Below are positions 1 through 11,574 of a stretch of DNA of 64,000 bases, in pieces; within the stretch, counting starts at the first letter, position 1, and each line of letters starts with the position of its first letter. Position numbers and translations under genes: made by a program. The stretch comes from a bacterium (GTDB lineage: Bacteria; Elusimicrobiota; Elusimicrobia; Elusimicrobiales; UBA9959), in contig JAJYJH010000002.1 of assembly GCA_021789695.1 (NCBI GenBank), positions 1 through 64,000 of the forward strand. The letters run 5' to 3'. The notes under the pieces are model-generated. The model made no database searches. It was not told where the DNA came from and saw nothing but the letters and a program-made list of their open reading frames with translations.

Positions 1-93
1 AGACAGGACGCCGTGGGAGATGTTCAGGGCAGGGATAGACTGGCGTGTTAACGACGGGAGAAGCGGGCTGATGCAGTCCACCTTAGGAAGGGC

Positions 94-477
94 TTAGAAC
101 TGGTCTAGACTCTCCCGACCAGCGCAAACTATCCTCGGCAATTCCGTCATGGTGCGGGAACCTTTCAGAACAAAATAGTCCGCCTTGCACTCGGCATAGG
201 CTATTATCTCCGCGGTTGGGTCGGAACTTACAACTATCACAGGGAATCTGGGGCACTCTGCGCCATACTTAAGTGCCGTACACACATCGACAGCGCTCCC
301 GTCCTCCAGGTGGAAGTCCAGCAAAATGCAGTCAGGCTTGTACATCTCTGCCAGCCGGACACCCGCTCTGCAAGTGGCGGCGCAATGGACATCATAGCCC
401 ATTTCGGCGAACAAATCCCTAAGGAGCCTGTGCCATAACAGGTCGTCGTCAACCACCAATATCTTCCGCTTGTCCAT
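94..477 (-). CDS. Stand-alone response regulator receiver (cassette 1)
   Basis: This 127-residue protein is a single CheY-like receiver domain with no output domain. The acidic pocket is in ILVVDDD (residues 7-12), the phospho-acceptor is D54 in ILLDFHLEDG, the switch serines are at 84-85 and the conserved lysine is K105 in FVLKG. I start at the ATG at 477, because a G-rich ribosome site lies just before it and the receiver fold begins at once; the reading frame is open further upstream but that stretch is promoter. It is transcribed away from the XRE gene at 597. It is clearly paralogous to the receiver at 8824-9195: both share DDDL.WHRLLR, SSDPTAE and AYAEC. Without an output domain it probably acts on a partner, and the adjacent XRE protein is the obvious candidate (inference). 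Confidence 0.9.
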   Translation of the reverse strand: MDKRKILVVDDDLLWHRLLRDLFAEMGYDVHCAATCRAGVRLAEMYKPDCILLDFHLEDGSAVDVCTALKYGAECPRFPVIVVSSDPTAEIIAYAECKADYFVLKGSRTMTELPRIVCAGRESLDQF

Positions 478-492
478 AACGCCCCCCCGTAT

Positions 493-589
493 AGTATAAC
501 AGACCTCTCCGTCGTTGTCAATACTTTTGGTGTGTGTAATAAATGAACACAATTGGTATGTAGACCGCCACGGGGAGAGGTTATACAAT
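493..589. promoter_or_regulatory. Divergent promoters between receiver and XRE gene
   Basis: On the minus strand a near-consensus sigma-70 promoter is visible: TTGACA (516-521), a 17-nt spacer, then TATACT (493-498), driving the receiver gene with a leader of about 9 nt. On the plus strand TAGACC (561-566), a 17-nt spacer and TACAAT (584-589) lie 7 nt before the ATG at 597, with no Shine-Dalgarno sequence. The XRE transcript is therefore probably leaderless. The two promoters are about 40 bp apart, so one bound regulator could affect both. Confidence 0.65.
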
Positions 590-596
590 TTCAGCT

Positions 597-956
597 ATGC
601 ACTCTGGGGATTACCGCATCGCCATAGGGAAGACTGTCCGCAAAGAACGCCTTAAACACGGCTGGACGCAGGAAGAACTGGCTGAAAAGATTGACGCCCA
701 CCCCTCTTTCATTGGCCAGATAGAGCGCGGTCTCAAGGCCGCCAGCCTGGATACGCTGAAGCGCTTAAGCACAACCTTCGACATACAGCCCGCAGACCTA
801 TTAAAGGATGCCGAAAACGGAGCTCCACACTGTGGGCAGCAGCCCGTGGAGCAGAGAATACTCAATCTCCTGAAAGGCTGTTCCACTCGCGAGCAGGAGG
901 CCGTTTACCAAACCATAAAATATATCCTTCGCAGAAAACGCAAACTGCACAAGTGA
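597..956 (+). CDS. Small XRE-family transcriptional regulator (cassette 1)
   Basis: This 119-residue protein has an N-terminal Cro/CI-type helix-turn-helix (residues 6-68; GWTQEELAEKIDAHPSFIGQ and the recognition-helix end IERGLKAAS), a short linker and a helical C-terminus ending in a basic run (RRKRK). The C-terminal segment (VEQRILNLL...REQEAVYQTIKYI) matches the same region of the XRE protein at 9348, so the family has a conserved C-terminal helix pair, perhaps for dimerising or receiving a signal. It diverges from a receiver gene. The ATG at 597 has a -10 box 7 nt before it and no ribosome site, which fits a leaderless mRNA. A repressor role is family knowledge; the partnership with the receiver is inference. 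Confidence 0.88.
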   Translation: MHSGDYRIAIGKTVRKERLKHGWTQEELAEKIDAHPSFIGQIERGLKAASLDTLKRLSTTFDIQPADLLKDAENGAPHCGQQPVEQRILNLLKGCSTREQEAVYQTIKYILRRKRKLHK

Positions 957-1116
957 ACCGCATAACACACCGCACCTCACCCATGAAAAAGCATTTTCCA
1001 TCAGCCGAAAACCGAAATCCCCCCGCCACCACCGCCCCCCCTATAGCGCGAAATGCGACAGCCCGGCCGCCGGAACAACAGTTCCTGGCGCGATCCGAGT
1101 TCGCACAGAAATAACC

Positions 1117-1145
1117 AGCGATATTGTCTTAACGACAATATCGCT
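1117..1145. promoter_or_regulatory. Perfect 12-bp inverted repeat, likely operator
   Basis: AGCGATATTGTC (1117-1128) and GACAATATCGCT (1134-1145) are perfect inverted repeats around a 5-nt TTAAC spacer. The site lies about 20 bp upstream of the -35 region of the XRE gene at 1210. It has no T-tract, so an operator is more likely than a terminator. Confidence 0.55.
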
Positions 1146-1163
1146 ATATAGTCTTAAGGAATG

Positions 1164-1192
1164 TTTTGTTGTCAGTGCATTATGCTTATAAT
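1164..1192 (+). promoter_or_regulatory. Promoter of the second XRE gene
   Basis: TTTTGT (1164-1169) and a perfect TATAAT (1187-1192) are separated by 17 nt. The expected start point is about 10 nt before the ATG at 1210, which leaves a very short leader with at best a poor ribosome site. Confidence 0.5.
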
Positions 1193-1209
1193 GTCTTTAG
1201 GGCAAGACT

Positions 1210-1614
1210 ATGGACCAGTTACGCATCATTGTGGGCACTAGGATAAGGCATCTGCGCAAACAGGCGGGGTTGACCATCTGTCAGCTCTCGGAAATATCCG
1301 GGGTTGACGGCGGGTTCATCAACTGCATAGAAAGAGGCAAAAAAACCCCCAGCCTTAATACGCTCCTTAAGATTACAAATGCGCTCCACGTCAACATTAT
1401 AAGCGCATTTTCCAATCAGGGCCCAAAGATTGAAGAGCCCTACGATTACCAGGTTTCCAGCCAAATCCGGGCGATCTTGAACGGAAAACCGCACGAAGAA
1501 AGGGAAAAATTCCTTGCAGTGCTCAAAACGCTGAAGGACAAGACTATGCTTTCTGCCATCTTCGATATCCTGCGCAAGTCGAACCGCACCCGGGACATCC
1601 TTCGGACGGAATAG
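1210..1614 (+). CDS. XRE-family transcriptional regulator
   Basis: This 134-residue protein has an N-terminal Cro/CI helix-turn-helix (residues 5-62; LTICQLSEISGVDGGFINCI, then ERGKKTPSLNTLLKI). A C-terminal region containing an EEREKF segment resembles the C-termini of the XRE proteins at 597 and 9348, although more loosely. Unlike those two, it has no divergent receiver gene. Instead it lies 97 bp upstream of the hybrid kinase at 1712 in the same direction, so it may regulate or be co-transcribed with that kinase (inference). A perfect inverted repeat at 1117-1145 upstream is a plausible autoregulatory operator. Confidence 0.85.
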   Translation: MDQLRIIVGTRIRHLRKQAGLTICQLSEISGVDGGFINCIERGKKTPSLNTLLKITNALHVNIISAFSNQGPKIEEPYDYQVSSQIRAILNGKPHEEREKFLAVLKTLKDKTMLSAIFDILRKSNRTRDILRTE

Positions 1615-1711
1615 TGTTCCCCGGACCCGCACGGCATAAACCGCGCCGCCACGGCCGGCAAATTCACTGATTAAACCACACGACAACCGCTCAACCGCAC
1701 GGAAAGGGGTC

Positions 1712-3787
1712 ATGACCACCAATAGGCTCAAACTTCTTGCCATCGACGACGACACGGAATGCCTCGAGGCGCTTAGCGTGGCCTTGAGGGCAGTGTTCCC
1801 GGACGGGGACCTCGCCACGGCCCAGGACGGCAAGAATGGGATACTGGCAGCCCTGGAATCCGACCCCGACATAATCCTGCTGGACGTGGTCATGCCGGAG
1901 ATGGACGGTTTCGAGACCTGCCGGCGGCTGAAAGAGGACATCCGGCTCAAGGATATTCCGGTGGCGCTCCTGACAGCGATAAAACCGGACAAGGATATAT
2001 GCGAAAAGGCCATCTCCGCCGGGGCGGGAACTTTCATCTCGAAACCGTTCGAAATGTGGGAACTGGCCATACAGCTCCGAGCTATGCTTAAACTCCGGGA
2101 CGCTAACCTAGCGCAGCGGCTGGAGAGAGAGCACCTGCAGCGCATGGTCGCCCAACGCACACGGGAGCTCGCGGAACAACTGGAACTCAGAGAAAAGGCT
2201 CTTGAGTCATTAAAGGAAAGTGAAGCGCTGTTCAAGGCCGTATTCACGGAAGCCCCACTGGGCATATGCCTGCTTGATGCCGGGACAGGTTTATACCTGC
2301 GAGCAAATCCGATGCTCGCCAAGATAGTGGGGCGCGCGCCGGAAGAGCTGGCAGGGGTGGACTGGCGTGCGATAACCCACCCGGACGACGTTCAAGCCCA
2401 GCTTGAATATCTGAACAAACTCTCGTCGGGCAGCGGCAGGGTGGCCAGCATGGAGAAACGCTATCTGCGCCCCGACGGCAGCATAGTTTGGGCAAAACTG
2501 ACCGCCACACTATTGCCGTATTTCGACAACTCCCACCCGCAGCTTCTTGTTATGGTGGAGGACATCAGCACGGGTAAAGCCGCAGAACAGGAAAGAAAAC
2601 AGCTTGAGGGGCAATTGCGGCAGTCCCAGAAAATGGAGACCGCCGGCAGCCTGGCTGGCAGTATCGCGCACGACTTCAACAATATCCTTTCAGCTATCCT
2701 GGCTTACAGCGATTTCCTAATAGCTGGTATGGGAAAAGACGATCCAAAACGCAAAGACGCAGAGGAAATAAAGAATATCAGCCTGCACGCCGCCACGCTA
2801 ACGCGCCAGCTCCTGGCCTTCAGCCGCAAGCAGGTGCTGCGCCCCAAGACCTTGGACCTAAACCAGGTAATCATAAACATGAAGCCCATGCTCAGGCGCC
2901 TGATTGGAGAGAACATAAAACTCACAATGCTCACTTCTCCCGTGCCAGCCTTCCTGAAGGCGGACCCGGGCGGCATGGAGCAGGTCATACTGAACCTCTG
3001 CGTTAACGCACGGGATGCCATGCCGAAAGGCGGAAAACTCACCTTAGAGTCCTCCCTCGCCTGTATCGACGCGGAATATATCCAGCGCCATGACACCCTT
3101 GCACCCGGCACCTACGTCCGGCTGTCCGTGAGCGACACCGGCCTCGGCATGACCCCGGAAACCAAGGCGCACATATTCGAACCATTCTTCACCACCAAAC
3201 CGCACGACAAGGGGACCGGCCTGGGACTCTCTACGGTACACGGCATAGTCCGGCAGAGCGGCGGCACCATAGTGGTGTACAGCGAAGAAGGGCGCGGCAC
3301 CGTTTTTAAGATCTATTTCCCGCAGACGGCCAGCGACTCAGTAGAGCAGGACCGGCAGCGACCGGGCAGCAAGTACCCCGCGGCACACGGCACGGTACTG
3401 GTGGTGGACGATGATATCCAGATACGCACTCTCTCCCGGCGCGCTCTGGCGATGGATGGACTTACCATATTCGAAGCTTCCAGCGCCGAAGAAGCCCTGG
3501 CCATACTGCACCGCCGCAATGGGAAGATAGACCTGCTGTTGACGGACATGGTGTTGCCCAAAATGACCGGGGTGGAACTCGCCGGGGAACTGGCGCGCCA
3601 GTTCGTCGCGCTCAAAATCATCTATATGTCCGGCTATACCGACCACACCGTGCTCACGAACGGGATGCTGCCTGCCGGCATGAATTTCATCCAGAAACCG
3701 TTCACGCTCGACCTGCTCATCCAGAAGGTCCGCGAAGCGCTCAGAATGCCTCCTCCGGGGACCTCTGGCCGAACAAAGCGCCATTGA
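1712..3787 (+). CDS. Hybrid histidine kinase REC-PAS-HisKA-HATPase-REC
   Basis: This 691-residue cytoplasmic kinase is built as follows: an N-terminal receiver (residues 6-125; D58, K111 in ISKPFE), a coiled coil (about 130-172), a PAS domain (about 172-292), HisKA with phospho-acceptor H320 in GSIAHDFNNILS, an HATPase with the N-box (VILNLCVNARDAM), SDTGLGM and GTGLGLSTV, and a C-terminal receiver (about 560-675; VLVVDDD, LLLTDMVLPKMTG, IQKPF). No membrane segment or signal peptide is present. The GGAAAGGGGTC ribosome site supports the ATG at 1712. Receivers at both ends suggest that the kinase is both controlled by phosphorylation and a node in a phosphorelay. The N-terminal receiver may receive phosphate from another kinase of the island (inference). 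It lies downstream of an XRE gene. Confidence 0.95.
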   Translation: MTTNRLKLLAIDDDTECLEALSVALRAVFPDGDLATAQDGKNGILAALESDPDIILLDVVMPEMDGFETCRRLKEDIRLKDIPVALLTAIKPDKDICEKAISAGAGTFISKPFEMWELAIQLRAMLKLRDANLAQRLEREHLQRMVAQRTRELAEQLELREKALESLKESEALFKAVFTEAPLGICLLDAGTGLYLRANPMLAKIVGRAPEELAGVDWRAITHPDDVQAQLEYLNKLSSGSGRVASMEKRYLRPDGSIVWAKLTATLLPYFDNSHPQLLVMVEDISTGKAAEQERKQLEGQLRQSQKMETAGSLAGSIAHDFNNILSAILAYSDFLIAGMGKDDPKRKDAEEIKNISLHAATLTRQLLAFSRKQVLRPKTLDLNQVIINMKPMLRRLIGENIKLTMLTSPVPAFLKADPGGMEQVILNLCVNARDAMPKGGKLTLESSLACIDAEYIQRHDTLAPGTYVRLSVSDTGLGMTPETKAHIFEPFFTTKPHDKGTGLGLSTVHGIVRQSGGTIVVYSEEGRGTVFKIYFPQTASDSVEQDRQRPGSKYPAAHGTVLVVDDDIQIRTLSRRALAMDGLTIFEASSAEEALAILHRRNGKIDLLLTDMVLPKMTGVELAGELARQFVALKIIYMSGYTDHTVLTNGMLPAGMNFIQKPFTLDLLIQKVREALRMPPPGTSGRTKRH

Positions 3788-3944
3788 TCGAGCGCCTATT
3801 GACCCGTGTCATGGGTTCTACAGCCCGCCCGACGGCGGGCCATCATCAGCACCTGTCCCCGCAGTGTACCTTTAGTTACACTCCTACTGTAGCCGGGGGG
3901 CTGCGCAGCGGTTGATGGATCTGCGGGGTAATGGGAGGGAAGAA
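3788..3944. other. Intergenic region with two hairpins
   Basis: This non-coding spacer follows the hybrid kinase. It contains a GC-rich hairpin (GCCCGCC/GGCGGGC, 3823-3840) without a T-tract and a second inverted repeat (AGTGTA/TACACT, about 3861-3881). The first could be a weak terminator. No intact gene was seen. Confidence 0.4.
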
Positions 3945-4040
3945 ATGCCCGGGAAAATACTTGTGGTCAACGACGGCACACCCATGCCCGATATCCACAC
4001 TCGGCACGGACTTGATAAAACTTTTCGAGAGAAAAACTAA
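3945..4040 (+). pseudogene. Truncated response-regulator N-terminus
   Basis: A 31-codon reading frame begins MPGKILVVNDGTPMPDI and then stops. The first eleven residues match the first strand and acidic loop of a receiver domain, with the usual DD changed to ND. A strong ribosome site (GGGAGGGAAGAA) precedes the ATG. After about residue 17 the receiver similarity is lost and a stop follows. I read it as the decayed 5' end of a receiver gene, since the island is full of receivers beginning this way. A functional small protein cannot be excluded. From 4041 to 4222 nothing further is recognisable. Confidence 0.6.
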
Positions 4041-4222
4041 AGGGGCCCAAAACCTGCTGGTGACCGGCTCCGTGTGAAAGAAGCAGCCCCTTCCCTTCTG
4101 CCAGGCATGTATTTTAAAAAACCTTTCCGGCCCGAAAGATTTTCTAGCCAAGGGGGAAAAACACTGCGGGCCGACACGAACACGGGCGGAGCAAGGGCGG
4201 CGCGATCCCTCGCCGAAACGCA

Positions 4223-4951
4223 TCACCTAAAAGCAGCCAACGCCTCGTTTATCGCATTCCTGAGCACTGCATCGACATCCCGCGCACGAAGAGAGACCAG
4301 CAGTGCGACAGCGCGTCTGAGGCGCAATTCCTTTATCTTCATCACGGCCACGAACTGCTCGTTCTGCGTGCCGGTCTCCAGCCGGTCCAGGAACAACCAC
4401 TGTTTTTCTTGCGTGACCGGGGGCTTAAGATGCGCCATGCAGACGGCGCGCACGTAGGAATTGCCGTGCGCCACCGCGTTGCTCAGAAGAAAATCCTGCG
4501 CGGCCGCGGAATCGCACATCCCGAGCGCACCGGCAACTTCACCGTCGAACCCGGAACCCCAAAGCCACATCAGCGCCCTGACCGCGGCCTCATCTCCTAT
4601 ACCGCCCAAGGTCTTGAGTATCCGCACCGGCGGGTCTTCAGCCAGCGTCTCCCGGCGCTCCTCGAATGCTTCCAGCAACCGCCCTATTGCGGAAGGGTGA
4701 AGCACACGCGCCATAATATCCCCGGCCCGGGCGCGCAATTCTGAAGGCGGCGCATGGCGGACTATCTCGAGAAGCGCCTCGAAAACCTGCGCCCCGACTA
4801 CTGCCTTAAACTCGCGCCACGGCTCGCGGGAGCCAGACACCGCGCGGCACTCGCACGCGGTCCCGGACAATTCCGCCAGCACGGTAAGCTTTTCACGCTC
4901 AGTACCGGACTGCAAGCGCGCGCTCAGCCTATCAACATCAGCAGACAGCAT
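4223..4951 (-). CDS. HEAT-repeat-like helical protein
   Basis: This protein of about 242 residues looks all-helical, with repeated helix pairs typical of HEAT or armadillo scaffolds (for example PPVRILKTLGGIGDEAAVRA, then NSYVRAVCMAHL and RRAVALLVSLRA). No catalytic motif, signal peptide or membrane segment was seen. The ATG at 4951 overlaps the TGA of the preceding gene by one base (TGATG), so translation is probably coupled. It is the last gene of a leftward operon with DUF4912, a 51-residue protein, a receiver and an Ig-like protein. A protein-protein interaction role is the usual one for such repeats; the partner is unknown. Confidence 0.75.
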   Translation of the reverse strand: MLSADVDRLSARLQSGTEREKLTVLAELSGTACECRAVSGSREPWREFKAVVGAQVFEALLEIVRHAPPSELRARAGDIMARVLHPSAIGRLLEAFEERRETLAEDPPVRILKTLGGIGDEAAVRALMWLWGSGFDGEVAGALGMCDSAAAQDFLLSNAVAHGNSYVRAVCMAHLKPPVTQEKQWLFLDRLETGTQNEQFVAVMKIKELRLRRAVALLVSLRARDVDAVLRNAINEALAAFR

Positions 4952-5310
4952 CAACGCCCCTTGGCGCCAAAGACCACCTTGAAGTCAACAGGTCCGTCAG
5001 TCAGCGTTCGTCCGTTCTTCAGGCACGCCCTGACCTCGGCCCGATGCCGGCCCTCGGCGTAACCACCCCAGTCATACCACCAGTAACCCACAGAATGGCG
5101 GCAAGGCCGCCAGTCCCCCTGGTCGATAGATATCTCCACTCGCTCCGCGTCGCCTACGGTTCCAGCACGCAAGGTATAGCCCGGAGCCGTGATTTTTTCA
5201 GCGTTTACCGGGTAATCCAGCGTTACCCGTCCGCCGGCATCCCGTGCAGGTGCGGCTAGAGGCATTACCCGCTTATTGCTTATTTTCTTTATCAACTTGC
5301 CTATTACCAT
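4951..5310 (-). CDS. Small Ig-like beta-sandwich protein
   Basis: This protein has about 119 residues if it starts at the ATG at 5310, which follows GGGGGAAAAAGAAC. A later ATG at 5265, just beyond the stop of the upstream receiver gene, is the alternative. The C-terminal 80 residues look like a single Ig-like or glycan-associated beta-sandwich: an Ala/Gly-rich lead-in, a GYTLRAGTV strand, VEISIDQGDW, a WWYDWGG loop, GRHRAEVRA and a final VDFKVVF strand. With the 5310 start it overlaps the receiver gene by 38 bp. No signal peptide was seen. DUF4912 in the same operon is often found beside glucan-metabolism genes, so a carbohydrate-related role is possible, but this is inference. Confidence 0.65.
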   Translation of the reverse strand: MVIGKLIKKISNKRVMPLAAPARDAGGRVTLDYPVNAEKITAPGYTLRAGTVGDAERVEISIDQGDWRPCRHSVGYWWYDWGGYAEGRHRAEVRACLKNGRTLTDGPVDFKVVFGAKGR

Positions 5311-5737
5311 GTTCTTTTTCCCCCTCGGCCAACCGCCTGCCCCCCAATATACTGCGCAGTACGCCTCTGAGCGCTTGTGGACTGACAGGCTTTTCAATGA
5401 ACTCTTTCACATTGGGTTCGTTTTTAAGTATGTCCAGCGTGGTCTGGTCTAGCCGGCGGCCGGACACTATCACTATCTGGATATTCGCCGTGTGGTCCGT
5501 CTGCAATTCGCGCAGGATCTCATAGCCTCCGGTCTTGGGCAGCATCAGGTCCAGAATGATAAGCGACGGGTGCAGGAGCCTTGCCTTGGCCATGGCCTCC
5601 TCCCCGTCCACGGCTTTTTCCACTCTGAAGCCTTCTTTACGGACTATAAAACAGAGGATGTCACAGACCGACTCGTCATCGTCCACGATCAGCACCAATT
5701 TTTCTTCCGACTTCACCTCTTGTTGTTTTCCGTTCAT
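5273..5737 (-). CDS. Response regulator receiver protein
   Basis: This 154-residue protein has one receiver domain (about residues 13-130) with VLIVDDDESV, the acceptor aspartate in LIILDLMLPKTGG, the switch in IVIVSG and the lysine in FIEKPVS. It ends in a charged tail of about 25 residues. The start is the ATG at 5737 behind a GGCGGGGC site; the open frame upstream has no domain content. There is no output domain. It lies between the 51-residue protein and the Ig-like protein in the DUF4912 operon, so it may gate that operon's products by protein contact (inference). Confidence 0.88.
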   Translation of the reverse strand: MNGKQQEVKSEEKLVLIVDDDESVCDILCFIVRKEGFRVEKAVDGEEAMAKARLLHPSLIILDLMLPKTGGYEILRELQTDHTANIQIVIVSGRRLDQTTLDILKNEPNVKEFIEKPVSPQALRGVLRSILGGRRLAEGEKEHGNRQVDKENKQ

Positions 5738-5832
5738 CGTGCCCCGCCAGGTATCCCCGATTTCAAACTGCCGATCAACTGATTCATGACACGCCGCCAG
5801 CACGTGGCTATGGCCCGGCAATTCTCGCAATT

Positions 5833-5988
5833 CTAATCATCTTCCGCAGGCTCCGGGCAATCGACTAAAGCCTCCGCCTCCTGTTTCAGCCGCCTAGCCA
5901 GCCGCAGCTTCCCGCAGTGGCCCTTAACGCGGGCCAGTTGCGCCGCACGCGCCTGCATAGCGGCGTCTTGCTCTGGGATTTTCGGCAT
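5833..5988 (-). CDS. Small charged helical protein (51 residues)
   Basis: This short gene starts at the ATG at 5988, only 7 nt after the TAG of the DUF4912 gene, and ends with TAG at 5833. The product begins MPKIPEQDAAMQARAAQ and is a basic, alanine-rich helix followed by an acidic tail (EPAEDD). Codon use is GC-rich like the neighbours and the spacing suits translational coupling, but the ribosome site is weak. I do not recognise a family. It could be a small partner of the DUF4912 or receiver protein. Confidence 0.5.
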   Translation of the reverse strand: MPKIPEQDAAMQARAAQLARVKGHCGKLRLARRLKQEAEALVDCPEPAEDD

Positions 5989-5995
5989 GGCATAG

Positions 5996-6853
5996 CTACC
6001 GCGGCTGCTCCGTCTTCCTGCCGATGACTATATTCATCTCGCGGGAATCCCTTTCATCCGCGGCCATAGCGCGTATCGGCAGCGACATGCCTCCGTCGGG
6101 CACGGCGAAGCGCATCGAGAAGGTTCCGTCCGTATTTAGAACCGCCTTGCGGCCGGCCACCGTCACGGAAGCGTCCGGCGCCGTAGTTCCGTACAGGATC
6201 AGCTCGCAGTCGGCTACCAGCCAGAATTTCTTTTCCGCCTGGATGCCGCCGGCCTGCGCGGCCATCGAACTGACGCCCCACGAAGCCCCCCTGGAAAACA
6301 CGGCCCGCAGCATCTCCCAGCGCTGGGCCAGGGATTTGGCCACCTCGCCGGAGCCCTTTCCTATATACTCCACTCCGGAAAGTTGCAGCAGTTTCTCAAA
6401 ATCTTCGTTTACAGCCATCCACTTCTCGTCCATCACGCCAGAAACGCGGCCGGACGGCAATACCACCGTATTGCTTTTCACTATCCCCACAAACTTTCCG
6501 TCCGGCAGCAGCAGGCCAAGCTCGCAGCAATAAGACCGCCCCGGTTCGTGCACGCGCGCGTACCAACTTCCCTCGTCCAGCATAACCGGCGTATCCATAT
6601 ATTCTGGACCACCGCCGGCCCGCGCGGTCATGTCGTGAACGCGCAACACCTGCCGTGAGCTCTCAAAGATATCGAAGCCGTGCGCGCGAACAAGCCGCGT
6701 CCGCGAAACCGGAGCTATCTCCCAGTAAACAAAAATCCAGTTAGGGTCCCTGGGCAGCGCCGACGCCATGGTTTCCCCGTATTTCCGCGGAAGCGCTGTC
6801 CGGCCTTCATCCGCCAGTTTATCCTTATCATCTAGAGAACCCGATGATGTCAT
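5996..6853 (-). CDS. DUF4912 domain protein
   Basis: This 285-residue protein carries the DUF4912 signature: LPRKYGET, then RDPNWIFVYWEI, a VHDMT strand and the GSWYARV/YCCELGLLLPDGKF segment (residues about 20-150). The C-terminal 100 residues form another beta-rich unit with an Ig/filamin-like pattern (LILYGTTAPDASVTVAGR). No signal peptide was seen. I choose the ATG at 6853; a GTG two codons earlier is possible. DUF4912 is widespread and often encoded near glucan branching or GH57 genes, but no enzymatic role is established. It heads a leftward operon: DUF4912, 51-residue protein, receiver, Ig-like, HEAT. Confidence 0.85.
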   Translation of the reverse strand: MTSSGSLDDKDKLADEGRTALPRKYGETMASALPRDPNWIFVYWEIAPVSRTRLVRAHGFDIFESSRQVLRVHDMTARAGGGPEYMDTPVMLDEGSWYARVHEPGRSYCCELGLLLPDGKFVGIVKSNTVVLPSGRVSGVMDEKWMAVNEDFEKLLQLSGVEYIGKGSGEVAKSLAQRWEMLRAVFSRGASWGVSSMAAQAGGIQAEKKFWLVADCELILYGTTAPDASVTVAGRKAVLNTDGTFSMRFAVPDGGMSLPIRAMAADERDSREMNIVIGRKTEQPR

Positions 6854-7152
6854 AACCACTCGCTATAAAGCCCTGCAGAAGATGTATGTCGACGCCTTAA
6901 GAGACTGTTACCCCTAAATAGTTTCCCGTTCTCCAACGCGGACCGGCTCCCCGCCACTCCGCCGCCATAACACCAACGCCAGAGCCGGAGCATAAATTTG
7001 TCCGAACCACACCACCGATTAATATTTTCAAGAAAGCCCGAAGAAATCTTCTCACCCAAGAGCAAATATACACGTTTTAAAACCAAATTGCCTATAGGGG
7101 AAAAACAGGTAGAAAATAGGTAGAAGAAATACCTTCTCATCCGAAGACGGGA
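6854..7152. other. AT-richer intergenic spacer
   Basis: This 299-bp region between DUF4912 and the MEDS regulator is visibly lower in GC than its flanks. An open frame on the minus strand (6850-7140) shows no domain and atypical AT-rich codons, so I do not annotate it. The spacer probably contains the DUF4912 promoter; a TATAGC element lies about 15 nt upstream of its start codon. Confidence 0.4.
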
Positions 7153-8637
7153 TCAAAGATCCCGAAGGTAGGATACAAGGTTGACGCCTTGGTTCGCCAA
7201 GCCCAGCTTGCGACGGATATTGCTGCGGTGTTTATCGACGGTTTGCGTGGAGGCGTTCAGCAGCCCGGAAATTTCCTTGGTGGTCAGGCCCGATTTAACC
7301 ATATTGGCGACTTCCATCTCTTTTGGCGTCAGCCTAAGGTCGCTCTCGGTCAGCCTGCGGCCGAATGAGGACACCAGCGCGCCCAGGCTCTTCTCAAGCA
7401 GGTCCAGCAGTTCGCGCGAAGTCCCGCCCTTCAACCTGATACGCTTTACGATAGGCAGGACGATCTTGTTGATGTTTACGATAACCTCGTCCCTCATCTT
7501 GTTCTTTTCGGTTTCCACGGCGTTCATGGCCTCGCGGAAAGCGATGTTCTTCTCCTCGAGACGCCGCTTCTCCACTTCCAGGGCGGCGCAGGTATGCTTC
7601 AGGTCCTCTTCCGCTTTCAGCCGCCCGCTGATGTCGCGCTCCACCGAGATTATCAGCCGCTTGCCCCCTATCACCAGCTCCTGCCCGGAGACCCCCGCCG
7701 TGAATACCGTACCGTCCTTGCGCTTATGGCGCACGATAAAACTAAAACCGTTCAGACTCCCGCCTTTAGCCGCCATCTCGCGCGCGGCCTTTTCGTCCGC
7801 GTTCAGCAGCGACACAGGCTTGCCGATCAGTTCTTCGCGGGAGTAGCCGAACGTCTTTACCGCCATGGCGTTGACATCCCTTATTATCGGGGGACCGGGA
7901 GGAGATATCTCAAGCAAAAGTATGGAATCATGTATCTGCCTGAAGAAAGCCCTGTACATCGCCGCGCTCTCATGCAGCGCAGATTCCGCTCTTCTGCGCC
8001 CGCCGGCGATCTTGCGCCAGACGCCGCGGCTCCTAGCGATGGCGTATTCGTGGGTATCAAGCACCTCCACCAGGTCGGGCAGGAGGCATTTTTTCACAGG
8101 ATACGCGCAAAACGCCAGCACCCGGTGCCCGCCGATAACCTCGTCCACCGCCCGTTCATAACCTAGGAACGAGCCCCAGCTCCCGTCGTCCAGCCAGGAG
8201 GCATTCCCTGTCACGCGCACACCGGCGTAACCGCCACCCATGCTCCGCGCCTCCGTTTTCATGTACTTTTTTAGCGCCTTGTTCACGTCGAAACGGCCGG
8301 AAGCGGTATACCACCGGTCATACGGAAGTATCTCCAACTGGCCGCGCGCTTTGCACTCCGCCAGGTCCGGCACCACGGCGGACAGCGCGCGTTCGGCCTC
8401 CTCCGGCCCCAGCGGGGCAGCCGTGATCCAAAGGCAGAACTCATTATTCTTCAGCCCTGCGGCGAAGTAGGGGAGCAGCAGTTCCAGCAAATCGCGTTTG
8501 GACTCATAAAAAAGGCAGACGTGCGCCCCCCACCGGAGCGGGCCCAGGATCTTAATACCTGACTGTCTCAAGGGAATCTGTTGGGCGGAAAGTCCGCCGC
8601 CGGCGGACTTAGTTTTGAAGTTTTTCTCTGCTTTCAT
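7153..8637 (-). CDS. MEDS-PAS-LuxR sensor-regulator
   Basis: This regulator of about 494 residues has three parts. The MEDS (DcmR-type sensory) domain covers about residues 25-210, with WGAHVCLFYES, LLPYFAAGLKNNEFCLW and the DRWY segment. A PAS domain covers about 225-350 (DISGRLKAEEDL at its end). A coiled coil (about 350-420) leads to a LuxR/GerE helix-turn-helix at the C-terminus (LTPKEMEVANMV, then GLTTKEISGLLNAS and VDKHRSNIRRKLGL). The long EKRRLEEKN...EKNKMRDEV stretch supports dimerisation. The start is set at the ATG at 8637; another ATG at 8700 lacks a ribosome site. MEDS domains sense small organic compounds in DcmR-type regulators; the ligand here is unknown. This is one of only a few DNA-binding outputs in the island. 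Confidence 0.9.
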   Translation of the reverse strand: MKAEKNFKTKSAGGGLSAQQIPLRQSGIKILGPLRWGAHVCLFYESKRDLLELLLPYFAAGLKNNEFCLWITAAPLGPEEAERALSAVVPDLAECKARGQLEILPYDRWYTASGRFDVNKALKKYMKTEARSMGGGYAGVRVTGNASWLDDGSWGSFLGYERAVDEVIGGHRVLAFCAYPVKKCLLPDLVEVLDTHEYAIARSRGVWRKIAGGRRRAESALHESAAMYRAFFRQIHDSILLLEISPPGPPIIRDVNAMAVKTFGYSREELIGKPVSLLNADEKAAREMAAKGGSLNGFSFIVRHKRKDGTVFTAGVSGQELVIGGKRLIISVERDISGRLKAEEDLKHTCAALEVEKRRLEEKNIAFREAMNAVETEKNKMRDEVIVNINKIVLPIVKRIRLKGGTSRELLDLLEKSLGALVSSFGRRLTESDLRLTPKEMEVANMVKSGLTTKEISGLLNASTQTVDKHRSNIRRKLGLANQGVNLVSYLRDL

Positions 8638-8823
8638 GACGCGCGCGCTCCGCAGTGACCAGCCAAAACGGCTGAAAATTACCGCCGGTACTGCCCGCAT
8701 GCTGCGTATCGGATGTGTCTAGGGGTAGTGTAGTCAAAACGTCCACATTAGTCAACACGCGGCGGCCCCGGGACGGACAAGGCGAGCTACCGCAGGCAGC
8801 GCCGCCAGTCCCGGACGCGCCCG

Positions 8824-9195
8824 TCAGGCGCTCTCCGGCAGCAATCCGGAGATTATTCCCGGGAGTTCCTTTATGATGTAAGCCCCCTTAAGTATGAAAT
8901 GCCTGGCCCGGCATTCCGCATAGGCCGAATACTCTGCAGTAGGGTCGGAACTGATCACAACCACCGGGGTATTGTCCAGAGTGGAATTTTTTCGCAATTC
9001 CGAGCAGACAAGCACAGCGTCGCCGTCGTCCAGATGATAATCCAGCAGGATACAATCCGGCTGGTACTGCGCGGCCATTCGGACCCCCTCCAGGCAACTG
9101 GAGGCAAAATAGGCCTCATATCCGACCAGCACCCTCCGCAACAACCTGTGCCAGAACAGGTCATCGTCAATAACAAGTATTTTGCGTTTAGCCAC
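8824..9195 (-). CDS. Stand-alone response regulator receiver (cassette 2)
   Basis: This 123-residue single receiver domain has ILVIDDDLFWHRLLR, the acceptor D52 in ILLDYHLDDG, VVISSDPTAEY and the lysine in FILKG. It starts with GTG at 9195 behind a GGGGCGGGG ribosome site. It is a clear paralogue of the receiver at 94-477, sharing the WHRLLR, SSDPTAE and AYAEC segments and the same divergent layout with an XRE gene. The MEDS regulator lies downstream on the same strand after a 186-bp gap and could be co-transcribed. Confidence 0.9.
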   Translation of the reverse strand: MAKRKILVIDDDLFWHRLLRRVLVGYEAYFASSCLEGVRMAAQYQPDCILLDYHLDDGDAVLVCSELRKNSTLDNTPVVVISSDPTAEYSAYAECRARHFILKGAYIIKELPGIISGLLPESA

Positions 9196-9264
9196 GTTCG
9201 CCCCGCCCCTTTCGGCGCAGCCCCCGTGCGGTAGCACCTACCCCTACCCCTCCCGCCCGCTGAA

Positions 9265-9338
9265 TTTATACCATCTATAAATGGTTGTGTCAATGCCGTC
9301 TATAAATTATTGTAAGAACCTGCGATTTGCCCTAAACT
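9265..9338. promoter_or_regulatory. Divergent promoters with two direct operator-like repeats
   Basis: The minus-strand promoter is TTGACA (9288-9293), a 17-nt spacer and TATAAA (9265-9270) for the receiver gene. The plus-strand promoter is TTGTAA (9310-9315), a 17-nt spacer and TAAACT (9333-9338), 9 nt before the XRE ATG. Two direct repeats of TCTATAAAT occur at 9274-9282 and 9299-9307, 25 bp apart. The first sits in the spacer of the receiver promoter and the second abuts the -35 box of the XRE promoter, so a factor bound to both could shut off both genes. Confidence 0.65.
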
Positions 9339-9347
9339 ATTACATCT

Positions 9348-9698
9348 ATGAAGAATCTCATCACGAGGGACATCGGACTACGCATAAGGGAATTAAGGAA
9401 GAAGAACGGCCTGACCATTGAAGAAGCGGCCCACATGGCAGGCGTCCACCCCAACTACCTGGGCGACGCCGAGCGCGGAAAAAAGAATTTTTCCATAACC
9501 ACTCTGGAAAAGCTAGCCAGGGTGCTGAGTGTGTCAATCTCGGAGATATTTTCCAGGAAAGCCCCGGCGCACACGGAAAAGCCCTCCCCCGTAGACCCGC
9601 GGCTAGTAGCCCTTTTCAAGAGCGCCACACAGGAAGAGCGGGATTTTATAATTCACACAGCCAGCTTCATTACCCGGAACAGATCCCGGGCGAAGTAA
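9348..9698 (+). CDS. Small XRE-family transcriptional regulator (cassette 2)
   Basis: This 116-residue protein has an N-terminal Cro/CI helix-turn-helix (residues 6-66; GLTIEEAAHMAGVHPNYLGD followed by AERGKKNFS) and a conserved C-terminal segment (VDPRLVALF...EERDFIIHTASFI) ending in basic residues. The same C-terminus is present in the XRE protein at 597. The -10 box lies 9 nt from the ATG and there is no ribosome site. It diverges from the receiver gene at 9195 and two TCTATAAAT repeats lie between them. It is probably an autoregulator of the cassette (inference). Confidence 0.88.
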   Translation: MKNLITRDIGLRIRELRKKNGLTIEEAAHMAGVHPNYLGDAERGKKNFSITTLEKLARVLSVSISEIFSRKAPAHTEKPSPVDPRLVALFKSATQEERDFIIHTASFITRNRSRAK

Positions 9699-9824
9699 GT
9701 CTTCTTAGCGTGCGGGCGCATATAAATCCCTAGTTCCGCCACAAAGTGTGAGGCCGGACCAGCCCGGCGCCCCGCCAGCCGCCGGGGGAAGGATAGGCAA
9801 GGCCACCAGGCAGAAAGACGTTCT

Positions 9825-10583
9825 TTAGGAAGATCGCTGCAGGAAAAGACGGTATTTGACTATGCGCTCAAGGGCGTCCAGGTCAGGCGGCTTCGGAAGA
9901 TAATCGAACGCGCCTTTGCTCAGGCACTCCCGGGCGATCTCCTCGTTGTCGTTACCGCTTATCATCATTATGCCGGTATCCGGCATCTCCAGGGAAAGGG
10001 TTTCTAACACCTCTAACCCGTTCTTGCCAGGCATGAAGATATCCAGCAGGATGAGGTCCGGCTTTTTCTCGCGGGCCAGGCGCTCCGCGGCCAGGCCGTC
10101 CCCGGCCCTTATCACGAAATATCCGGCGGCCACCAAACTGCGCGAGAGAACGCCCAGCATCCCCTCATCGTCCTCCGCGATAAGTATGGTCGCCGGGCCC
10201 TTGACCGAAACGGGGAATTGGGCCGCGGACGGCAGCAGTTTCTCCACGGAGTCGAGCGCGCTGGAAAGGCCGTCTCCCTTGGAGAGGAAGGCGGCGGCGC
10301 CGCGCTTTAGGTACGCGCGCCCCTCCTCTGGGTCGTCGTTGCCGGTAAGGACCACGATGGGCACGTCGCTGGAAATCCTGCGTATTTGCTCGAAGACGCC
10401 GGAGCCGGTCAGGAAAGGCAGGTCGCGGTCCAGCACCACCAGGTCCGGCCGCTCCGCCCGGAAAACGTTTACGCCGCTGACCCCGTCCGCCGCCGAGATC
10501 ACCTTGTGGCCGTCGCGCATCAGGAAGACCGTGAGCGCGTCGCGGACTATGCCGTCATCTTCGATTATGAGGACTTTAGCCAT
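9825..10583 (-). CDS. Tandem-receiver response regulator without output domain
   Basis: This 252-residue protein consists of two consecutive receiver domains. The first (about residues 2-118) has VLIIEDDGIV, LVVLDRDLPFLTG, VVLTGND and FLSKGDG. The second (about 130-250) has ILIAEDDEGM, LILLDIFMPGKNG, MMISGND and YLPKPPD. Both keep the acidic pocket, acceptor aspartate and lysine, so both could be phosphorylated. No DNA-binding or enzymatic part follows. I start at the ATG at 10583 behind GGGAACA; an ATG three codons earlier lacks a site. It is the last gene in a leftward run of signalling genes and may be a phosphate sink or adaptor (inference). Confidence 0.88.
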   Translation of the reverse strand: MAKVLIIEDDGIVRDALTVFLMRDGHKVISAADGVSGVNVFRAERPDLVVLDRDLPFLTGSGVFEQIRRISSDVPIVVLTGNDDPEEGRAYLKRGAAAFLSKGDGLSSALDSVEKLLPSAAQFPVSVKGPATILIAEDDEGMLGVLSRSLVAAGYFVIRAGDGLAAERLAREKKPDLILLDIFMPGKNGLEVLETLSLEMPDTGIMMISGNDNEEIARECLSKGAFDYLPKPPDLDALERIVKYRLFLQRSS

Positions 10584-10620
10584 TGTTCCCATATGTGATT
10601 ATAGTAAAAAAGTCCTCCGG

Positions 10621-11574
10621 TCACACCTCTCTCAGTCCGTCGCGGCGCCTGTCTTTCAGGAAGACGCTGCCGCCCGTGGTCCGGCGCCCTTTTAGGAATT
10701 TCTTTATTTCCGCGGCTATATCTACTATCTTGGCGTAATGCCCCAGCCTCCGCCGCTCGTTGGTGACTATGGCTATGGAAAGGGACATCAGCGGGAAGCG
10801 TCTCTCGATGCCGGAGCGGTCCGCGGAGGTTATATAGCCACTCTCCGCGTCCCCGGCCCGGTAAAGCCCGGGCGCGCGGGAATCGAACCTTGACGCAACG
10901 CGCCCGGCCACGGCCTCGGCCTTATCCGGCGGGCACATCAGCACGAAGTCGTCCCCGCCGATATGCCCCACGAAGAGGTCGTCCAAGGAGAACTCGTTCT
11001 GGACCTCGGTAAGCAGCCGCGCCACCGCCCTGATGGCCTCGTCGCCCTTGAGATAGCCGTAGTTGTCGTTGTAGGCCTTGAAGTTGTCAATGTCGATGTA
11101 GAAAAAAGCCAGCGGGGCGCCCGAGGCTATGCGCGCGCCGGCCTCCTCCTCTATCGCCGGGCCGCCGGGCAGCAGGGTCAGCGGGTTGGCGGCCAGCAGG
11201 CGTCGTGCCCTGCGCGCCGCGGCCTCCACCCTGGCCACCAGCTCGACCGAGTCGAAGGGCTTAGAGACAAAATCGTCCGCGCCTATCCCGAATTCCGCCG
11301 CCTTTTCCCCCGGGCTGTTCTCGCCGCTGATCACTATAACTGGGACCACCGCAGTGCGCGGGTTCCTGCGCAGGCTGGCCAGCAGCTCCCTGCCCCCCAG
11401 CCCCGGCATATTCAGGTCCAGCAGTATCACGTCGGGCAGTTCGGCCGCTATCCTCTCCAGCGCGGAGAGCCCGTCGTCGGCGGTGCGAACCCTCCAGCCT
11501 CTGCCGTTAAGCAGCCGGCACACCACCTCCTGCATCGCCTTGTCGTCGTCCGCAACCAGGATCTTCCCTTCCAT
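10621..11574 (-). CDS. Response regulator with GGDEF diguanylate cyclase
   Basis: This 317-residue protein has an N-terminal receiver (about 1-118; ILVADDDKAM, VILLDLNMPGLGG, FVSKPFD) and a C-terminal GGDEF domain (about 130-300). The active-site signature is GHIGGDDF, and the metal/substrate loop reads IDIDNFKAYNDNYG. The aspartate in the following KGDEA is retained where cGAMP-making (Hypr) cyclases have serine, so it should make cyclic di-GMP. I see no RxxD inhibitory site just before the signature. The ATG at 11574 follows GGGGGGGG and lies 8 bp after the stop of the upstream lipoprotein-like gene; the open frame extending upstream is a shadow of that gene. A PilZ-like protein at 60641 is a possible effector in the window. 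Confidence 0.92.
   Translation of the reverse strand: MEGKILVADDDKAMQEVVCRLLNGRGWRVRTADDGLSALERIAAELPDVILLDLNMPGLGGRELLASLRRNPRTAVVPVIVISGENSPGEKAAEFGIGADDFVSKPFDSVELVARVEAAARRARRLLAANPLTLLPGGPAIEEEAGARIASGAPLAFFYIDIDNFKAYNDNYGYLKGDEAIRAVARLLTEVQNEFSLDDLFVGHIGGDDFVLMCPPDKAEAVAGRVASRFDSRAPGLYRAGDAESGYITSADRSGIERRFPLMSLSIAIVTNERRRLGHYAKIVDIAAEIKKFLKGRRTTGGSVFLKDRRRDGLREV

Follow-up and report, generated by a model that had tools for sequence, protein, structure and literature searches.

Stand-alone receivers of Elusimicrobiota keep a divergent XRE neighbour through repeated exchange of the regulator with its operator-like DNA

When the gene of a stand-alone receiver faces that of a small XRE protein, do the two proteins form a switch, or is the XRE a local regulator of its neighbour? 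The question arises twice in the window, the 64,000-nucleotide stretch of DNA analysed here, with which contig C2 of an Elusimicrobiota genome of 2.45 Mb begins. At both places the receiver and XRE genes are divergent (Table 1), and the two receivers share the motifs WHRLLR, SSDPTAE and AYAEC, as the first-pass annotation had read. That annotation took the two places for duplicated cassettes, in which phosphorylation of the receiver toggles the facing XRE. The neighbourhood of the first cassette additionally contains a third XRE (P0005) and a hybrid kinase, neither of which that annotation mentions.

Table 1. Genes, promoter elements and operator-like repeats at the two receiver/XRE loci
Feature	Positions	Strand	Remarks
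Stand-alone receiver 1, P0001, 127 aa	94-477	minus	Single Response_reg domain; phospho-acceptor D54, K105
Receiver-1 promoter -10, TATACT	493-498	minus	17-bp spacer
Receiver-1 promoter -35, TTGACA	516-521	minus	Exact consensus
Pair-1 operator-like repeat O1, AATACTTTTGGTGTGT	520-535		Overlaps edge of receiver -35; kept in type A homologues
Pair-1 operator-like repeat O2, AACACAATTGGTATGT	546-561		26 bp from O1; abuts weak XRE -35
XRE-1 promoter -10, TACAAT	584-589	plus	7 nt before ATG; kept in all type A homologues
XRE type A, P0002, 119 aa	597-956	plus	HTH_3
Third XRE, type C, P0005, 134 aa	1210-1614	plus	Directly upstream of hybrid kinase
Hybrid histidine kinase, 691 aa	1712-3787	plus	REC-PAS-HisKA-HATPase-REC
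Stand-alone receiver 2, P0003	8824-9195	minus	Single Response_reg domain; GTG start at 9195
Receiver-2 promoter -10, TATAAA	9265-9270	minus	
Pair-2 palindromic operator-like repeat O1, CCATCTATAAATGG	9271-9284		Wholly inside receiver -35/-10 spacer, filling most of it; kept in type B homologues
Receiver-2 promoter -35, TTGACA	9288-9293	minus	
Pair-2 operator-like repeat O2, CCGTCTATAAATTA	9296-9309		25 bp from O1; just upstream of receiver -35
XRE type B, P0004, 116 aa	9348-9698	plus	HTH_3

The receivers have the make-up of single-domain response regulators, with an acidic pair, a phospho-accepting aspartate, an S/T residue and a lysine, and no output domain. D11, D54, D59 and K105 are invariant in the alignment of the family, and the AlphaFold model of P0001 is a canonical receiver (pLDDT 90). 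Protein comparison gives ~56-57% identity between P0001 and P0003. Their most likely starts are ATG 477 and GTG 9195; a 164-aa frame of receiver 1 opening with TTG (to 588) appears too long, because ATG 477 is preceded by a Shine-Dalgarno-like GGGGGG run. The genome holds exactly two members of this receiver subfamily (next match E 8e-10), and both face an XRE. While receiver domains are matched ~69 times in the genome, HTH_3 is matched only four times, and two of these four matches are the XREs that face the window receivers. The pairing of receiver and XRE in this genome is more than chance.

Of three cysteines of P0001, C36 is kept in 25 of the 29 paired receivers, and C50 and C66 in all 29. 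Among 28 other receivers of the genome, equivalents occur in 1, 1 and 12, respectively. The cysteines, which may have a redox or metal role, are also present in OmpR-like relatives. Five receivers of the same subfamily (L050, L051, L054, L057 and L062) carry a C-terminal domain that, judged by eye, resembles an OmpR-type winged helix. The lone receivers may have lost an output domain, or never gained one.

The XRE proteins facing the two receivers score 52.4 and 61.6 bits against HTH_3, for which the curated cut-off is 23. The AlphaFold model of P0002 (mean pLDDT 82) comprises an HTH domain, a disordered link (74-80) and helices 84-91 and 97-118. Its nearest solved structures are C.BclI, ClgR, C.AhdI and SinR, with the likeness lying mainly over the HTH (for C.BclI, 2b5a, TM 0.88 over the HTH of P0002). 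SinR (1b0n) is also the best sequence match of the XRE profile (E 4e-18, alignment spanning SinR positions 1-87), but superposition of the model with SinR is poor beyond the HTH (rmsd 11). Given the two modelled helices, the C-terminal helix pair that had been described as conserved is plausible as a structure, but its sequence is poorly conserved between XRE types.

P0002 and P0004 are only 29% identical over an aligned stretch that includes the C-terminal part, and their closest XREs in other genomes are 67% and 84% identical to them, respectively. The term "duplicated" is misleading, because neither XRE resembles the other one of the window nearly as closely as it does XREs from other genomes. 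A recent tandem duplication of the cassette is ruled out by the different XRE types (A and B) and by the position of the two receivers in different clades.

Is the arrangement kept elsewhere? Among the best 12 receiver matches from other genomes, 11 are divergent from an XRE, the exception being the second copy of genome G008. A scan of named genomes found 17 of 18 receivers with at least 46% identity paired with an XRE, so that homologues are mostly together rather than apart. A phylum search gave G008:C95 as the only unpaired receiver among the best 24 (E up to 3e-45), of which all but G030:C79 had their neighbourhood checked. After removal of repeats, 29 distinct divergent pairs remain, spread over one Elusimicrobiota family and at least five of its genera. 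The pairing is thus not peculiar to this window, and a conserved divergent receiver/XRE gene pair is supported. Close receivers without an XRE do exist (L061/L140, L047).

Around distant relatives of the receiver (54 loci, nearly all in other phyla), the only XRE-like match was a Spirochaetota fusion protein, in a scan whose HMM was built on Elusimicrobiota XREs and could miss remote ones. The fusion joins HTH_3 and receiver in one protein (L161:5704-6606). The one pair assigned to 'Parcubacteria' (L138) was rejected as a sign of spread beyond Elusimicrobiota; its contig carries other genes with up to 82% Elusimicrobiota match and is probably misbinned.

The XRE family is broader than its receiver pairing. 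We tallied 35 XRE-family loci, namely those matches down to ~E 2e-20 whose neighbourhood was examined. Fifteen face a receiver of the same subfamily and two another receiver; six adjoin a hybrid kinase. The remaining 12 lie opposite or next to other genes (secreted proteins, lipoproteins, AAA proteins).

The facing XREs of the 29 pairs fall into six types, A-F, each of which is one clade, except for the single-member type C. The types are only ~30% identical to one another, and their C-terminal parts are divergent. On the receiver tree, XRE type changes at least 11 times, as compared with a minimum of five and a mean of 17 after shuffling; the types are more clustered than random. A dedicated, co-evolving protein pair would have congruent trees or correlated distances, and neither was found. 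Receiver and XRE identities are uncorrelated over the 29 pairs (Mantel r=0.02, p=0.36), although identities between distant receivers are saturated, so that the test has less force at long range. Similarity of the intergenic DNA goes with that of the XREs (r=0.56, p<=0.0005) but shows no correlation with that of the receivers (r=0.04, p=0.25).

A close case is independent of saturation, because the receivers of G018 and G008 are 92% identical, whereas the XREs facing them share 37% identity. The DNA of the two genomes is 85% identical up to ~8 bp past the receiver start codon. The following 617/647 bp, which comprise only the intergenic region and the XRE, have no similarity at all, and 81% identity resumes just before the second XRE and continues into the kinase. 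In a third genome, G026, the XRE is of the G018 type, and the receiver region matches that of G008 at 92% identity. The clean replacement and the G026 combination therefore indicate that the regulator travels together with its operators and leaves the receiver in place.

What is exchanged with the XRE can be seen in the intergenic DNA. An exact TTGACA stands in 26/29 receiver promoters, the spacer is nearly always 17 bp and the -10 is TATAAT-like; most receiver promoters score above all 100 shuffles. The -35 boxes of the XRE promoters are poor. Mostly, just 6-9 nt separate the end of the XRE -10 from the ATG in types A and B, suggesting leaderless XRE mRNAs, and the XRE-1 transcript is probably leaderless. 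In types B and E a palindrome lies inside the receiver promoter spacer, and in types A, D and F an operator-like dyad lies beside the -35, near -41. A strong promoter with a candidate site inside its spacer is most simply read as a repressed promoter. In the whole genome, the type A repeat pattern matches only the two copies of pair 1, and the type B pattern only the two of pair 2; the patterns were derived from these very copies, so that the informative part is their absence elsewhere in the 2.45 Mb. As for a local divergent regulator, the operator-like repeats thus lie in the shared intergenic DNA, track the regulator and are absent elsewhere. No RNA element was found at Rfam cut-offs in window positions 1-11000.

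Beyond the pair, the neighbourhood of the first cassette recurs. A P0005-like XRE lies just upstream of a hybrid kinase in the window and at three other loci (L239, L240, L242), and in G018, G008 and G026 the hybrid kinase and a second XRE have stayed together with the pair. Upstream of P0005, a large palindrome (GCGATATTGTCTTAACGACAATATCGC, window 1118-1144) is a likely operator. No hybrid kinase of this type is adjacent to the second cassette. The second pair is adjoined by a MEDS-PAS-LuxR protein (window 7153-8700), in a signalling-rich region. Type F pairs at L075, L076, L077 and L230 lie near a ~1040-aa gene that resembles UvrD/RecB-type helicases by its Walker motif. A large serine recombinase of ~507 aa is multi-copy in the genus, with five matches in this genome, and very often lies at contig ends (loci G000 C14, C10, C55, C4 and C41, L063:5637-7157 and L064:8352-9872). 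It has a conserved ~670-bp leader and adjoins receivers, Fic and other genes.

We consider it likely that the XRE is a local autoregulatory repressor, which sets the dose of a stand-alone receiver that works with nearby kinases, and that the repressor and its operators are exchangeable. Made from a weak, probably leaderless promoter, the XRE would bind the candidate operator pair, 25-26 bp apart, between the two genes. There, it would repress the strong receiver promoter (TTGACA-17 bp-TATAAT-like), thereby setting the amount of receiver, and would probably control its own expression. The receiver would diffuse as a phospho-protein and exchange phosphate with kinases encoded nearby, which for the first cassette may be the hybrid kinase. 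It would act through protein contact, and its targets would not specifically be the facing XRE. Conservation of the pair, exchange of XREs together with their operators, the consensus receiver promoter and the uniqueness of the operators are seen in the sequence itself; repression, autoregulation and the phosphotransfer partner are inferred. XRE and operators together form an exchangeable unit, replaced repeatedly beside a conserved receiver gene. Relatives of the facing XREs are also found opposite unrelated genes or ahead of kinases, which fits the expectation for local regulators.

Several observations would also suit a switch in which the phosphorylated receiver binds the facing XRE and so frees it from DNA, or the reverse; the repressor would then be switched by phosphorylation and would feed back on receiver expression. 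The divergent pairing is strongly conserved, all phosphorylation residues are kept in the receivers, and the XREs have a SinR-like HTH with C-terminal helices; SinR is controlled by a small protein that contacts its C-terminal part. HTH_3 and receiver are naturally fused in the Spirochaetota protein of L161, and single-domain receivers can bind DNA-binding proteins (McvR, PMC8995066). Nevertheless, we regard such a switch, which is in essence the toggling of a dedicated facing XRE put forward in the first-pass annotation, as unlikely. Receiver and XRE show no co-evolution, there are at least 11 type changes, in which the XRE is replaced by another with a divergent C-terminal part, and XRE and operators were cleanly replaced beside a 92%-identical receiver. 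Moreover, related XREs sit opposite non-receiver genes, and a few close receivers have no XRE. That the pairing survives XRE exchanges could mean that any XRE of the family can be contacted by the receiver. The receiver might then be a general phospho-dependent anti-repressor, recognising something shared by every XRE type of the family, which seems quite improbable to us. If it were true, any XRE could slot in, and the pair would be a modular phospho-switch that tolerates exchange of its DNA-binding half.

The position of the dyad near -41 in types A, D and F is one from which a lambda-cI-like protein could activate, and the XRE might then be a cI-like activator of the receiver gene and the pair a positive switch. 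This is very doubtful, since a consensus -35 and a 17-bp spacer are already present in the receiver promoter, which sets it apart from typical activator-dependent ones, and since the palindrome lies inside the spacer in types B and E. Finally, the pair could be cargo or a control module of a mobile element with the large serine recombinase, which lies beyond the receiver in the same relative orientation in four genomes (G018, G008, G007, G012). We hold this to be extremely improbable: the recombinase is a separate multi-copy element with a leader of its own, it also occurs next to Fic and other genes, and the majority of pairs lack an adjoining recombinase.

Taken together, we favour the exchangeable local repressor. 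The parts are known, and so is the way in which the receiver is likely to be controlled; what is new is a pairing that stays conserved while its regulator-operator unit is exchanged again and again. The locus provides a clear natural case of a gene that has retained a divergent local regulator although that regulator, with its operators, was replaced many times, and of regulatory modules swapped as units. It also illustrates that a conserved gene neighbourhood alone is no evidence of a co-evolved protein contact. A conserved receiver/XRE arrangement is now placed in the poorly studied, uncultured Elusimicrobiota; in the open-access literature we found no account of a conserved divergent pair of this kind, in agreement with the first-pass annotation.

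Known systems share parts of this arrangement. In the LovK-LovR, SpdR and RtrA/RtrB network of Caulobacter, the response regulator SpdR activates XRE genes by transcription (PMC6530869, PMC10688885). As here, XRE and two-component proteins belong to one circuit and the XRE family has radiated, but no divergent receiver/XRE pair was found in the descriptions of that network. McvR of Xanthomonas, which contacts HpaR1, Zur and HU-like proteins (PMC8995066), is likewise a lone receiver with a conserved phospho-Asp and no output domain; for the receivers here, the co-evolution test argues against a dedicated XRE contact. The XRE side resembles autoregulated XRE repressors with a divergent neighbour, such as lambda cI/Cro-type repressors, the C proteins of restriction-modification systems and SinR. 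Common to them are the HTH_3 fold, paired operator-like sites in divergent intergenic DNA, a local target and, in type A, a weak and probably leaderless promoter of the repressor's own. Unlike in those systems, the neighbour gene here encodes a lone two-component receiver, and repressor and operator have been exchanged between types at one conserved place.
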